Below, one piece after another: positions 33,667 through 37,383 of a stretch of DNA of 64,000 bases (its first letter is position 1; each line of letters begins with the position of its first letter). The notes below the pieces were generated by a model. That model saw nothing but the letters and a program-made list of their open reading frames with translations, was not told where the DNA came from and did no database searches. The stretch is from Emcibacter sp. (GTDB lineage: Bacteria > Pseudomonadota > Alphaproteobacteria > Sphingomonadales > Emcibacteraceae). The stretch covers positions 1 through 64,000 of the forward strand of contig JAIOYI010000003.1 in assembly GCA_021741205.1 (NCBI GenBank), given 5' to 3'. The position numbers and the translations under genes were made by a program.

Positions 33667-34209
33667 ATGAGCTTTGAAATTTCTTTTACCCGCCGATATT
33701 GCATGAGCCATCGTCTGTTTAATATTAAAAACAGCCGGTGTTTCATCCCCCATGGCCATAATGAATATGTTAAGGTCCATCTGATCTCAACTGGCAATGA
33801 CCAGCTGGACGGCGCCGTCAACATGATGGCACCTTTTGCAATTTTAAAGAAAGTTTGGCATCAATGGATTGACGACCATGTGGACCACAGTCTGCAATTG
33901 TCCAGCCAAGACCAAATGCTGGATTATTTCAAGGAAAGAGAACCAGAGAATCTGTCTCATATCATGATAACTCCGGGCGACCCGACCACAGAAGTACTTG
34001 CCGCCTGTTTCATGTCAAAAATCAATGCAATTTTATTGGAACAAGGCCTTTCGGTTCGTTGCCATAAGATTGAGATTATTGAAACCCCAACCAATAGCGT
34101 AAGTTTTAGCGGTGATCCTGCTCATGTTATTTCAACGGATCATTATGATGGCCCCGATATTCCGTGGTGGTGTCGACCTGATATGTCTATTAATGATCTC
34201 GAGGTTTAA
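33667..34209 (+). CDS. 6-pyruvoyl-tetrahydropterin/6-carboxy-tetrahydropterin synthase family protein
   Basis: This is a T-fold protein of 180 residues in the PTPS/QueD family, which acts on dihydroneopterin triphosphate. The zinc histidines H15 (SHRL) and H29/H31 (PHGHN), the catalytic Cys25 (RCFIPHGH), the Asp73-His74 pair and Glu139 (IETPTN, pterin anchor) are all present. It is longer than QueD (about 120 residues) because of inserts and a C-terminal extension. A pteridine-reductase-like gene follows 3 bases downstream, which favours a tetrahydropterin product over queuosine; no queC/queE is in the window. Confidence 0.82.
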   Translation: MSFEISFTRRYCMSHRLFNIKNSRCFIPHGHNEYVKVHLISTGNDQLDGAVNMMAPFAILKKVWHQWIDDHVDHSLQLSSQDQMLDYFKEREPENLSHIMITPGDPTTEVLAACFMSKINAILLEQGLSVRCHKIEIIETPTNSVSFSGDPAHVISTDHYDGPDIPWWCRPDMSINDLEV

Positions 34210-34212
34210 ATC

Positions 34213-34989
34213 ATGGCTGAAGGAGTTTTCATAACGGCGGCCTGTAAACGTATTGGAAGATATCTTGCCACACGAATTGCCGCCGAGGGATATTATATCT
34301 ATCTGCATTATCATAATATTCAGAAGGATGCGGAGGAAACCTTAAAATCCATAAAGGATAAAGGCGGTGACGGTTGTTTGGTTCAATGTGACTTAAGCCA
34401 ATATGACGCCGTGGAAGGACTTTTAAACCGCATCAATAATCCCGATCATCCCATAAGGCACGTCATCAATAATGCCTCACAATTTAAAGATGACAGTTTT
34501 CTTAATTTTACCGCCGAGAGCTTTTCGTCCCACCAAAATGTCAATCTTCGCGCGCCCATACAATTAGCCCGCAGCCTCTATAACTTAATCCCCCATGGAC
34601 AAAATGGCAGCGTGATCAATATCTTAGATAGCAAAGTATTTTCCCTTAATGCAGACTTTATGTCCTATAGCTTAAGCAAATATGCCCTTTTTGGCGCCAC
34701 GGAAATGATGGCGCAGGCCTTAAGCCCAAAAATTCGCACAAACGGTATCGCTCCCGGTCTTACCCTGATCAGCAGCACCCAAAGCCAAGAAAACTTTGCC
34801 CTTGCCAGTCATTTAAATTTCACAGGGGAACCCATAAAACCAGAAGATATTGCTGAAACGGCTTTGTTACTCCTGAAAACAACCAGTATTAACGGCGTAA
34901 CCATTCCCGTTGACGGTGGCCAGAAAATGATGAATTTTACCGCCGATATCGTTAATGTAGCCAAGGGCATATTAAACGAAAAAGACTAA
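34213..34989 (+). CDS. SDR-family reductase, pteridine-reductase/FolM-like
   Basis: This is a 258-residue short-chain dehydrogenase. The NADPH-binding start FITAACKRIGRYLA is the TxxxRxG variant typical of pteridine reductases rather than TGxxxGxG. NNASQF matches the NNAS motif of PTR1/FolM, and the catalytic Tyr/Lys pair lies in SYSLSKYAL. FolM-type enzymes reduce dihydromonapterin or dihydrobiopterin. Coupling to the PTPS-like gene (3-base gap) strongly suggests a joint pterin role. It converges with xthA, overlapping by 4 bases. Confidence 0.8.
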   Translation: MAEGVFITAACKRIGRYLATRIAAEGYYIYLHYHNIQKDAEETLKSIKDKGGDGCLVQCDLSQYDAVEGLLNRINNPDHPIRHVINNASQFKDDSFLNFTAESFSSHQNVNLRAPIQLARSLYNLIPHGQNGSVINILDSKVFSLNADFMSYSLSKYALFGATEMMAQALSPKIRTNGIAPGLTLISSTQSQENFALASHLNFTGEPIKPEDIAETALLLLKTTSINGVTIPVDGGQKMMNFTADIVNVAKGILNEKD

Positions 34990-35783
34990 AGCAAAAACTC
35001 CACCATAACGGGGGCATGATCCGACGGTTTTTGCCAACCACGGACCTCTTCCAGTACCGCCATATTTTCCATATTGGATTTTAAAGCGGGGCTCGCCCAG
35101 ATATGATCAAGACGCCGTCCCCTGTCATTTATCCGCCAGTCTTTGGCCCGATAAGACCACCAGCTATAAAGCCGCGCGGGTTCTGGCACAAAATGCCGCA
35201 TCACATCAAACCAATCATGGGTCTCCATCAAATTTACCATCATATCACATTCAAGGGGCGTGTGGCTTACGACCTTGAGCAGGCTTTTATGGGACCAAAC
35301 ATCACTCTCGTAAGGCGCAATATTCAAATCCCCCACCAAAATATGTTTAGCATCCTTTGGTAAGGCTCCCGACCATTCGGTCATTTCATTCAAAAAATCA
35401 AGTTTATGGGCAAATTTATCATTAATAGCCGCATCTGGCTCGTCCCCCCCTGCTGGCACATAAAAATTATGAATTCTTATCCCGCCCAAAATACCCGCCT
35501 CAATATGACGGGCATCGCCTTTGCCGCACCAATCTTTGCGGTCAATATCTTCAAGGGGAATACGGGACATGATCGCAACCCCATTATAGGATTTTTGTCC
35601 TGTAATAGCGTGATAGCCATACCCCCGCTCCACAAAAAAATCTGTGGGAAATATATGGTCCTCTACTTTTGTTTCCTGAAAACAAATGATATCAGGATTA
35701 TAGTCCTTCATCAGCTGATCCACCAGATCAAGCCTCGCCCTGATGGAATTAATATTCCACGTGATAAGTTTAATTTTTTCCAT
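34986..35783 (-). CDS. xthA: exodeoxyribonuclease III
   Basis: This is a 265-residue AP endonuclease/3'-5' exonuclease of the Xth family that repairs abasic sites. Seen are ITWNINSIRARL (metal Asn), CFQETKVED (catalytic Glu), the GDLNIAPYESD Asp/Asn pair, and the C-terminal SDHAPVMVEF His/Asp. The start at MEKIKLITWN gives the normal length; a longer frame exists upstream without support. It lies 13 bases after the unknown 195-residue gene in the lolA-xthA neighbourhood. Confidence 0.95.
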   Translation of the reverse strand: MEKIKLITWNINSIRARLDLVDQLMKDYNPDIICFQETKVEDHIFPTDFFVERGYGYHAITGQKSYNGVAIMSRIPLEDIDRKDWCGKGDARHIEAGILGGIRIHNFYVPAGGDEPDAAINDKFAHKLDFLNEMTEWSGALPKDAKHILVGDLNIAPYESDVWSHKSLLKVVSHTPLECDMMVNLMETHDWFDVMRHFVPEPARLYSWWSYRAKDWRINDRGRRLDHIWASPALKSNMENMAVLEEVRGWQKPSDHAPVMVEFLL

Positions 35784-35796
35784 AAATGACCTTTGT

Positions 35797-36384
35797 TTAA
35801 AAAATATTGAGGCTGTTCCCCATGACCCCAAGCGGCCAATAACCCGTTTCAAATAACTGAAATTTCAAGGCAAAGGGATGATCATCCCCTACCCCTGCAG
35901 CAATAACAAGGGCAGCCTGATAGCAGGCCTGCACTCCTTCACCGATGGCGGCCTTTAACAGTTCATCATCCTGTACACCAAATCGGTCAGCGGCCGCAAG
36001 AACGCCCTCACCCACATATTCCGATGCCACACTCGTCACATGGGTCAACACCATTTCTAAAAGCTCAGGATCAATGCTTTGCATCACTTCCACACTGAGA
36101 GCCGCCATGAGTTGCTGCTCGGTTTCCCAATAAGGGCTGTTCCAATCATTGGTTTCCAAGGAATAGGCCGCCTCCTGCCAATCTTCTACTTGAGCGGGGG
36201 TTGCTTCTGGAAATCCAAGAGCATCAAGATAATTTTGAGCTTTTAACAGCACGTCATCTTTTAGAGGTTCACCCAAATACCGAAACCAATCCGTATGGGG
36301 AATAAGCTTTGCAAAACGTGCCACAAGAACCAAATTGGGATATTCTTCAAGCGCATCAATCTCTAAATCATCTTCTTCGTTCAT
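35797..36384 (-). CDS. conserved-looking hypothetical protein of unknown family
   Basis: I do not recognise this 195-residue protein. It is acidic at the N terminus (EEDDLEIDALEEYPN), soluble, mostly helical, with tryptophan/tyrosine-rich patches (HTDWFRYLG, DWNSPYWETEQQ) and a hydrophobic Ala-rich helix (CYQAALVIAAGVG). It has no signal peptide or membrane segment. It may share an mRNA with xthA (13-base gap). Upstream on the same strand lies the predicted small RNA, whose terminator is 97 bases before this start, so some read-through regulation is conceivable. Confidence 0.7.
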   Translation of the reverse strand: MNEEDDLEIDALEEYPNLVLVARFAKLIPHTDWFRYLGEPLKDDVLLKAQNYLDALGFPEATPAQVEDWQEAAYSLETNDWNSPYWETEQQLMAALSVEVMQSIDPELLEMVLTHVTSVASEYVGEGVLAAADRFGVQDDELLKAAIGEGVQACYQAALVIAAGVGDDHPFALKFQLFETGYWPLGVMGNSLNIF

Positions 36385-36438
36385 GTATGATCCTTATGAT
36401 AACAGAATAGACTGATAGTTAACTCTTTTGTGGGGTAT

Positions 36439-36472
36439 TCTCAAGCCTTTATCCATCTCAGGCCTTTATCCA
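36439..36472. repeat. two tandem 17-base repeats
   Basis: Two head-to-tail copies of TCTCARGCCTTTATCCA differ at one base. They lie directly beside the small-RNA terminator and upstream of the unknown gene. This is the third short tandem repeat of 16-17 base period in the window. Confidence 0.85.
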
Positions 36473-36618
36473 TAAAGAAAGCCCGACCAGTTTCCTGATC
36501 GGGCAGTTTATGTGCTCTATGCACTACAAGAGGAAGGGGAGGAAAAACCTCTTGTCATGTAACCTAAGCCAATAGGAAACCTAGGGAAGGGATGGTTTCG
36601 TATCGTTATGCTTGAAAG
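36472..36618 (-). ncRNA. predicted trans-acting small RNA with anti-Shine-Dalgarno hairpin loops
   Basis: This is a predicted transcript of about 145 bases in the lolA/unknown-gene gap. Reading leftward it can fold into stem GAAACC/GGTTTC (36576-36599) with loop ATCCCTTCCCTA, stem ACAAGAGG/CCTCTTGT (36526-36555) with loop TTTTTCCTCCCCTT, a small GTGC/GCAC hairpin (36512-36524), then a terminator hairpin. CCTCCCC in an open loop is complementary to Shine-Dalgarno sequences. C-rich loops plus a heat-shock-type promoter are the design of CcsR/cuckoo and alpha-r14/15-type RNAs of Alphaproteobacteria. The 5' end is inferred from the promoter. It contains no convincing short reading frame. It could instead be a lolA 3'-UTR element or a leader of the next gene. 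Confidence 0.65.
36481..36504 (-). terminator. rho-independent terminator of the predicted small RNA
   Basis: The stem GCCCGA-x-CAG paired with CTG-x-TCGGGC, with one internal mismatch and a 4-base loop, is followed leftward by TTTCTTTAT. It would end the small RNA and any read-through from lolA. Confidence 0.8.
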
Positions 36619-36626
36619 CTACATAT

Positions 36627-36664
36627 TAGATGTAGGTAATGTTTGTTGATATTCAAGAGGGAAA
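36627..36664 (-). promoter_or_regulatory. RpoH (heat-shock sigma-32)-like promoter
   Basis: Read leftward, TTTCCCTCTTGAA (36664-36652) fits the extended -35 consensus TNTCNCNCTTGAA at every fixed base. After a 16-base spacer comes CTACATCTA (36635-36627), 7 of 9 against CCCCATNTA with CATNTA intact. It lies about 40 bases after the lolA stop and points into the predicted small RNA. Confidence 0.65.
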
Positions 36665-36702
36665 TAACACCGCCAAAATAATTTTCCAGAAAGGATGTTA
36701 TA

Positions 36703-37383
36703 TTAACGCGCTCTTGGGCCCTTTTTACTGGGTCTTGGGTCTCTATAAGTGAAATATTTATTATCAATTTCAACATTATATTCTGGATTGACCAGTGCAA
36801 CACGGGTGGTATAGCCCTGCGCATCAACGCTTTCCCATGCCCGAAGCTCCATAGTGCTTTCCTCAAATATCAGGATAATATAACCATATTCCTGCCGTTT
36901 GGGATCAATAACAGGAACCTTCACAAGTCCCGCAAAATAGATGATGTCGGGAATCTCTATAGCAGAATCAAATTTAATCTCATCGTCAACCAAAATACCA
37001 AGTGGTGTTTTCTTGATGGGCCAACGATTAACCTGTTTCACCTCATAATCAACAAAGGTCAGCAGGCTACCGTTGCTCACCACCAAAAAAGGTGCATCAT
37101 CCCCAAAATCAAACCGAAGTTTTCCTGGTCTTTCGAGATACAACTTGCCACCCGCCACGGAACCATCGGGGGCACGCTGAATAAAGTCCGATGTCATGGA
37201 ATGGATGGCATTTAAGCTATGCTCTATCTTGCGTAATGTGGCCTCGTCCCGTGCCTTTTTATTTATTTCAACAACCCCCTCTTCTATGGGTTTAATGGCA
37301 GGATCCGCCACAATAGCCTCATCCGCCACAGCGGATGACAAGGTCAATAAAAGTATAAAAAAACTGGTTATAAATTGCTTCAT
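36703..37383 (-). CDS. lolA: outer-membrane lipoprotein carrier protein, LolA family
   Basis: LolA carries lipoproteins across the periplasm to the outer membrane. The protein has 226 residues with a signal peptide (QFITSFFILLLTLSSAVADEA) and the LolA barrel: HSMTSDFIQRAPDGSVAGGKLYLERPGKLRFDF, then the DGSLLTFVDYEVKQV-like turn (here NGSLLTFVDYEVKQV). A longer in-frame start upstream would spoil the signal peptide. The gene order ftsK-lolA-xthA is typical of Alphaproteobacteria. Confidence 0.9.
   Translation of the reverse strand: MKQFITSFFILLLTLSSAVADEAIVADPAIKPIEEGVVEINKKARDEATLRKIEHSLNAIHSMTSDFIQRAPDGSVAGGKLYLERPGKLRFDFGDDAPFLVVSNGSLLTFVDYEVKQVNRWPIKKTPLGILVDDEIKFDSAIEIPDIIYFAGLVKVPVIDPKRQEYGYIILIFEESTMELRAWESVDAQGYTTRVALVNPEYNVEIDNKYFTYRDPRPSKKGPRAR

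Follow-up and report, generated by a model that had tools for sequence, protein, structure and literature searches.

A conserved small RNA gene between lolA and xth in Emcibacter with a heat-shock-type promoter and a probable relationship to RusT of Caulobacter

The window considered here, i.e., the whole stretch of 64,000 nucleotides that was analysed (Emcibacter sp., assembly GCA_021741205.1, contig JAIOYI010000003.1, positions 1 to 64,000), carries on its minus strand the series ftsK, lolA, a small RNA, d195 and xth, d195 being a gene for a protein of 195 residues. The features of this region are the following:

36703-37383, minus strand: lolA, upstream neighbour (Pfam LolA, 2.2e-22)
36651-36657, minus strand: CTTGAAT, the -35 element in the RpoH-like promoter (10.9 bits at the window site; p 0.04 against shuffles)
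36630-36637, minus strand: -10 element ACCTACAT after a 13-nt spacer (trained-motif site)
36473-36623, minus strand: sRNA of about 150 nt (folds, model matches, relatives; 5' end inferred from the promoter)
36559-36622, minus strand: hairpin 1, a long interrupted stem (folds and covariation of helices 1-2)
36582-36593, minus strand: loop 1, ATCCCTTCCCTA = AUCCCUUCCCUA (sequence and alignment)
36526-36555, minus strand: hairpin 2 (folds and covariation)
36534-36547, minus strand: loop 2, TTTTTCCTCCCCTT = UUUUUCCUCCCCUU, proposed target-pairing loop (conservation; RusT analogy)
36512-36524, minus strand: small hairpin 3, GTGCATAGAGCAC, i.e., GUGC-AUAGA-GCAC (predicted fold)
36481-36504, minus strand: stem of the intrinsic terminator, with its T-rich tail at 36473-36480 (scan and covariation of helix 5)
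35797-36384, minus strand: d195, 195-residue protein, downstream neighbour (conserved next to the RNA)
34986-35852, minus strand: xth, exodeoxyribonuclease III (TIGR00195, 197.5 bits, above cut-off)

The RpoH-like -35/-10 pair, two hairpins and the terminator had been named on this strand by the original prediction for this DNA and are present, with coordinates and loops correctly given; the small hairpin 3 is an additional element. In relatives, the -10 element frequently reads CCTATAT or CCCATAT. Judged by the promoter spacing, the 5' end of the RNA likely lies near 36623, which is in the same region as the previously proposed 36615-36620 and a few bases upstream of it. Folding of 169 nt yielded -56.1 kcal/mol vs. 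-33.2 (sd 3.5) in 200 shuffles, none of which was equally stable (z -6.49). A terminator scan of 36350-36800 returned one terminator, the one listed above, with 0.3 expected in shuffles, and a scan of the same range for sigma-70-type consensus promoters returned none, with 1.2 expected. The RNA occurs as a single copy in its own genome (G000), where BLAST gave one full match besides seven pieces of 14-30 nt (E 0.7-4.6) and the covariance model R1 described below gave one match; the later model R2 adds a weak second one at the same place on the opposite strand. Plasmid copies of the RNA were not found. At its cut-offs, Rfam 15 recognised only a tRNA in the window; a permissive search gave weak matches below them, and the one to Spot 42 (19.3 bits, E 0.18) was in our judgement due to the terminator.

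The protein d195 has no match in Pfam or NCBIfam. A profile of it (A6) found the gene in 79 of 385 genomes of the class, frequently beside xth and at times elsewhere, with none in viral contigs and no plasmid copies. It is a conserved protein family lacking a name. Between terminator and d195, a CTTG-type element occupies 36416-36445 and reads, by eye, e.g., CTTGAGC-N16-TATAAC in relatives; it is probably the own promoter of d195. On the plus strand at 33667-34989, a 6-pyruvoyl-tetrahydropterin-synthase-like gene is followed by a short-chain dehydrogenase gene; the two may form a pair of a pterin pathway.

Searching named genomes for lolA yielded 21 loci. Twenty of these are full lolA relatives, with titles that read Emcibacter, Emcibacteraceae or Kordiimonadaceae in 11 cases and Alphaproteobacteria only in nine; a Saprospiraceae locus (L039) was left out of the relatives. 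The RNA lies downstream of lolA in 18 of these 20. None was found in L023, where transposon-like DNA is inserted after lolA, or in the about 0.7 kb of DNA covered for L038. Two sub-types can be distinguished by loop 2 (UUUUUCCCUCCCCCUU or UUUUUCCUUUUUCCCCUC), and loop 1 features CCUUCCUC or a near form in most members of the family. R1, the covariance model built from ten second-type sequences, recovered each of the 12 first-type members on which it was run (E <= 1e-6), including the window with 49 bits (E 6.6e-9). Over 296 genomes of the order it produced matches in 29; 26 were full-length and all of these belong to the window's family, and the matches in G101, G003 and G047 were dropped, being judged terminator-only by eye. 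Full-length RNA was recovered by R1 in 26 of the 32 family genomes, or in 27 if a divergent copy in G018 (L137, complement of 1277-1424) is counted. The second loop of L137 is UUACCCCCCCUUA, and its C-rich loops are devoid of CCUCC, which suggests that the C-rich character may be kept rather than the exact anti-Shine-Dalgarno word. In the nearly complete family genome G042 (L136), the RNA is absent and the lolA-d195 gap measures little over 100 bases, representing a natural deletion or an absence of the RNA. G003 features another gene after lolA and G014 a partial lolA; from G001 and G047 no lolA was obtained. Hairpin 3 is not part of the predicted fold of some members, e.g., L033, L027 and L020. 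A far longer terminator hairpin was observed in L020-L022 (3780-3946), again with the third hairpin missing from the predicted fold.

Compensatory changes in the stems, whose lack among relatives had been named beforehand as speaking against the RNA, are abundant. In the alignment of 26 family sequences, which was fitted to the model, 93.3% of the cells are paired and 25 of 33 pairs have changed on both sides. The covariation score of 0.475 vs. 0.226 in shuffles was reached by none of 500 shuffles and was lost when partners were slid. Hairpin 1 contributes with both-side changes in 11 of the 12 pairs of helices 1-2, and in helix 5, the terminator, 98.8% of the cells are paired. A MAFFT alignment of ten second-type sequences likewise revealed both-side changes in 12 of 33 pairs (0/500 shuffles as high), further pair types not being in excess (119/500 shuffles as high). 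The window RNA is almost certainly a real, conserved sRNA. An element of the lolA mRNA 3' UTR, i.e., processed hairpins plus a terminator that serve no function of their own, would agree with the position directly after lolA in most of the 18 loci and with a terminator that would end lolA transcripts too; nevertheless, a promoter-like site is conserved in all 26 loci at an almost constant distance, the conserved loops sit on covarying stems, and the RNA is intact in L024 and L037, where extra DNA splits it from lolA, which renders such an element very unlikely.

The promoter was compared with a two-block motif trained on 54 clpB and groES upstream regions of the same family (50 used), which reads CTTG[AT][CG]T, 13 bases, CACTAT[AC]TG. 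When an 85-base stretch surrounding each of 26 RNA starts was scanned in model coordinates, L137 not included, the best motif site coincided with the conserved site in all 26 and ended 1-13 bases before the model start. The mean of 10.4 bits compares with -2.6 in shuffles, the highest of 100 shuffled set means being -0.8, and 24 of the 26 promoters individually reached p <= 0.05. Upstream regions of 52 window ORFs (putative genes, first ATG) had a mean of -2.5 bits with two at >= 8, and those of d195 a mean of 1.2 bits (27 extracted, two of them from the wrong place). In a separate extraction of 27 loci, L112 and L137 had their best motif site elsewhere than at the conserved one. The housekeeping comparison is a thin one, comprising the d195 upstream regions and one rrn locus, as the 16S upstream region was obtained in 1 of 32 genomes. 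A strict RpoH consensus occurs at two sites of the own genome, neither of them being the promoter of the RNA, and a published warning holds that RpoH promoters are not callable from sequence alone (PMC3441632). As the motif trained on heat-shock genes of the family fits the promoter and the sigma-70 scan came up empty, RpoH likely controls the RNA in the clade of the window, in line with the promoter type initially claimed. Outside the family the motif is weak, with a mean of -0.1 bits over 30 loci (shuffles -2.5, sd of the set mean 0.66) and 4 of 30 loci at p < 0.05. Taken together, the other families thus match it weakly, so that the promoter appears to have changed across families while the RNA stayed.

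A second model (R2), which comprised all 26 family sequences, was searched against 385 genomes of the class and returned, after the own genome, the different-family genome G632 as best match (E 1.3e-5), whose locus (L139) has ftsK, lolA, RNA, d195 and xth in the order of the window. Among the matches listed, the other 18 loci (L140-L157) lacked lolA, d195, ftsK and xth nearby and were dropped. From the 79 d195-bearing genomes of the class, the DNA upstream of d195 was examined in 69 besides the own one (29 loci and 40 stretches; nine were left out), and 19 of these 69 contain RNAs of the same plan (L179, L180, L182, L183, L192-L194, L197, L204-L206, L209-L211, L214, L221-L223, L225). Many d195 loci have no lolA within the fetched DNA, and in others, e.g., L181 and L184-L186, the gap of about 90-140 bases between lolA and d195 is too short for the RNA. 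Nine sequences from other families (A9), with a loop 1 close to GUUGCCCCCCCGCU (poly-C in several of these families) and the loop 2 UCCCCUCCC, show both-side changes in 29 of 44 pairs (0/500 shuffles as high). A third model (R3) was built from these nine, which had been chosen beside d195, with the window's family left out entirely; its match to the window RNA (22.8 bits, E 6e-4) falls exactly on the correct position. Out of eight own-family loci given, R3 found five, i.e., the window, L019 (E 1.5e-5), L128, L114 and L137 (E 5.5e-9), and missed L033, L037 and L115. Conversely, R2 hit 7 of 20 loci in the correct position, including the own-family L137; L206 was reached only at E 0.06.

Over the 385 genomes, 34 matched R3 at E <= 0.001, the own genome being missed under the stricter filters. 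Three RNAs (L260, L258, L257) were added by R3 in the genomes of L190, L196 and L201. Among the 30 R3 loci listed, 25 lie no further than 1.5 kb from lolA, d195 or xth. The other five, L261-L264 and L270, lack all three genes in this range; L261 adjoins an aminotransferase gene and an M1-type peptidase gene, and L262 a MOSC gene. Weaker R3 matches near lolA (L272, L274-L276) are 110-nt variants, and L276 has the order lolA-RNA-xth with neighbours confirmed by Pfam. Places with a neighbour gene are distributed over nine families besides that of the window (f11, f12, f17, f46, f98, f123, f128, f130, f133), and weak matches indicate a further three (f23, f60, f135). In 29 related loci with 25 distinct RNA places, Rfam had no match at cut-offs; for L206, a hit to Thr_leader with 28.2 bits (E 0.0012, cut-off 55) was put down to composition. 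By model matches and gene order, other alphaproteobacterial families carry predicted distant relatives of the RNA in the corresponding position. One could object that the lolA-xth RNAs of the different families, including RusT of Caulobacter, are unrelated C-rich sRNAs that happen to share an address, as the similarity between distant groups lies largely in loops and terminators and several members score weakly or not at all across models. However, hairpin order, place and strand are the same, models match in both directions via L137 and the f46 loci L179, L180, L182 and L183, and 10 of the 15 R3 loci not examined earlier fall within 1.5 kb of at least one of the three neighbour genes lolA, d195 and xth, with a model that is blind to genes and whose seeds were chosen beside d195. 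Unrelated origins are therefore unlikely.

The same loci bear on the question of whether the RNA acts in cis. A leader of d195, whose hairpins and terminator attenuate read-through into d195-xth, would be in accordance with RNA, d195 and xth on one strand and with d195 following the RNA in all 26 family loci (lolA is upstream, within the fetched DNA, in 22 of 26). Against this, a separate promoter-like element (CTTG...TATAAC or TAATTTG) recurs by eye between terminator and d195 in many relatives, the consensus folds that were viewed, without a systematic search, show no competing antiterminator, and the RNA exists in the absence of d195 at L276 as well as at L261 and L262 with their other neighbours; a cis-acting leader is decidedly unlikely. 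Trans action is favoured because the RNA persists apart from lolA (L024, L037) and without lolA, d195 or xth within 1.5 kb (L261, L262). The best explanation, in which moderate confidence is placed, is a trans-acting sRNA of ~150 nt with its own promoter and terminator, which would belong to a RusT-like lolA-xth family, be controlled by RpoH in this clade and pair through its loops with G-rich starts. According to this model, RpoH would cause the RNA to be made under heat or envelope stress, Hfq would bind around hairpin 3, and loop 2, perhaps also loop 1, would pair with G-rich sequence at or near ribosome-binding sites, by which the translation of a limited set of mRNAs would be lowered. By analogy, repression through pairing near translation starts would on balance be expected; outer-membrane receptors and porins as targets, conceivable from the example of RusT, are rather doubtful.

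The pairing was tested on 864 kb of the own genome (about a third) with 731 called genes. Loop 2 paired on average with -7.5 kcal/mol at gene starts vs. -6.8 in coding windows, and the fraction at <= -12 was 0.082 at gene starts vs. 0.055 in coding windows; the reversed loop 2 did equally (-7.5 and 0.083). For loop 1, this control is void, because the loop reads the same backwards. Complements of the loop 2 core (AGGAA, GAGGA, GGAGG, GGGAG) show an enrichment of about 5-10-fold between -17 and -5 of 646 genes with first-ATG starts, and the commonest Shine-Dalgarno words in the same set, AAGGA and AGGAG, one of about 19-fold. A long complement of the B-type loop 2 was found in 11 genomes at 11 own loci with 0-2 mismatches and at nine others with three, the reversed pattern giving 10, so that no targets emerged from it. 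Anti-Shine-Dalgarno action is plausible by analogy, ribosome-binding-site binding having been proposed for the cuckoo RNAs (PMC3927594). Since the most enriched words AAGGA and AGGAG match the loops less well, a limited G-rich target set appears more likely, with loops that can meet a Shine-Dalgarno sequence and are not built for the average one.

A broader reading is that a single sRNA gene has resided at the lolA-xth junction since early alphaproteobacterial history, keeping its two C-rich pairing loops while the stems changed freely and its promoter was rewired (RpoH here, NtrYX/iron in Caulobacter), and represents a class-wide envelope-stress riboregulator; this is offered tentatively, as an attractive possibility. 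In enterobacteria, sigma-E-dependent sRNAs silence outer-membrane proteins, and they are the counterpart proposed for it. Should RusT and the window RNA be of one family, this family would reach beyond the Caulobacteraceae into a number of alphaproteobacterial families, with a fixed address at which the RNA is readily located and deleted. Moreover, this would allow a direct test of how an sRNA keeps its pairing loops while the promoter moves between stress responses, and of whether envelope mRNAs of these bacteria are silenced through RNA upon heat shock. Covariance models are now available for a family that Rfam 15 does not recognise in the window and at 25 related places. Most sRNAs have been traced among close relatives only (PMC4414408).

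Three known groups of alphaproteobacterial RNAs resemble the window RNA in part. The CcsR1-4/cuckoo stress RNAs (RFMSmelA075, RFMSmelA099) feature loops with CCUCCUCCC, several hairpin modules and several copies per genome, and CcsR is driven by RpoHI/HII and cotranscribed with a DUF1127 gene (PMC3927594, PMC10253847). C-rich loops on short hairpins and, for CcsR, the RpoH-type promoter are shared, and a kinship with CcsR/cuckoo or ar14 had been suggested. In contrast to them, the window RNA is single copy with other loops and other neighbours: CCUCCUCCC is not present in the loops AUCCCUUCCCUA and UUUUUCCUCCCCUU, a scan of six proteins encoded nearby (LolA, FtsK, Xth-type, SDR, PTPS and d195) detected no DUF1127, the covariance search recommended for these families gave no Rfam match at cut-offs, and ar14 scored 11.3 bits on the relative L206 vs. 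a cut-off of 58.8. The suggestion fails on the features compared, an anti-Shine-Dalgarno RNA of the cuckoo/CcsR or ar14 type being highly improbable. In GsrN of Caulobacter, a stress RNA stabilised by Hfq, an exposed poly-C loop pairs with a G-rich leader and KatG is raised; it has a SigT/EcfG promoter and is found beside general-stress regulators outside C. crescentus (PMC5869019), whereas the neighbours of the window RNA are not ecfG-nepR-phyR. EcpR1 (SmelC291) of Sinorhizobium is broadly conserved, stress-induced and pairs by a loop at ribosome-binding sites, and differs by its position downstream of divK-pleD, its two stem-loop domains and its loop UCCGCCGCAUCU (PMC4414408).

The closest known counterpart is RusT (CCNA_R0199) of C. 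crescentus, a 118-nt Hfq-bound RNA between lolA and xth with four stem-loops, of which the third is the Hfq site and the last an intrinsic terminator (PMC11005374). Accordingly, the locus is not a new one for such an RNA, which had been considered possible; it is already known via RusT, and new within the literature searched are its wider range, an apparent RpoH promoter and a set of covariance models. Homologues of RusT were named in close Caulobacteraceae (PMC11005374), later papers cite it without extending it in the text available (PMC12559287, PMC11475020), and a literature search, with most subscription papers outside it, found no paper extending its range. Unlike RusT, the window RNA measures about 150 nt, and its promoter fits heat-shock genes, whereas NtrYX controls RusT and iron starvation induces it, RpoH control not being reported in the accessible parts of that study (PMC11005374). 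In addition, the window has d195 as an extra gene, whereas lolA and xth of Caulobacter bear the consecutive locus numbers CCNA_03820 and CCNA_03821 and thus have no d195 between them; L276 is likewise lolA-RNA-xth. The likenesses comprise the place between lolA and xth on the same strand and the predicted fold with four stem-loops, the last being a terminator. By its order in the RNA, the small hairpin 3 would be the counterpart of the stem-loop at which RusT binds Hfq. Loop 2 is rich in C and ranks with the best-conserved parts, and it is the second loop of RusT that carries cytosine 53, which pairs with some of the targets, these including mRNAs of TonB-dependent receptors and ompW (PMC11005374). 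Compared by place, strand order and architecture, and not by the sequence of RusT, the window RNA and RusT are very probably members of the same family.
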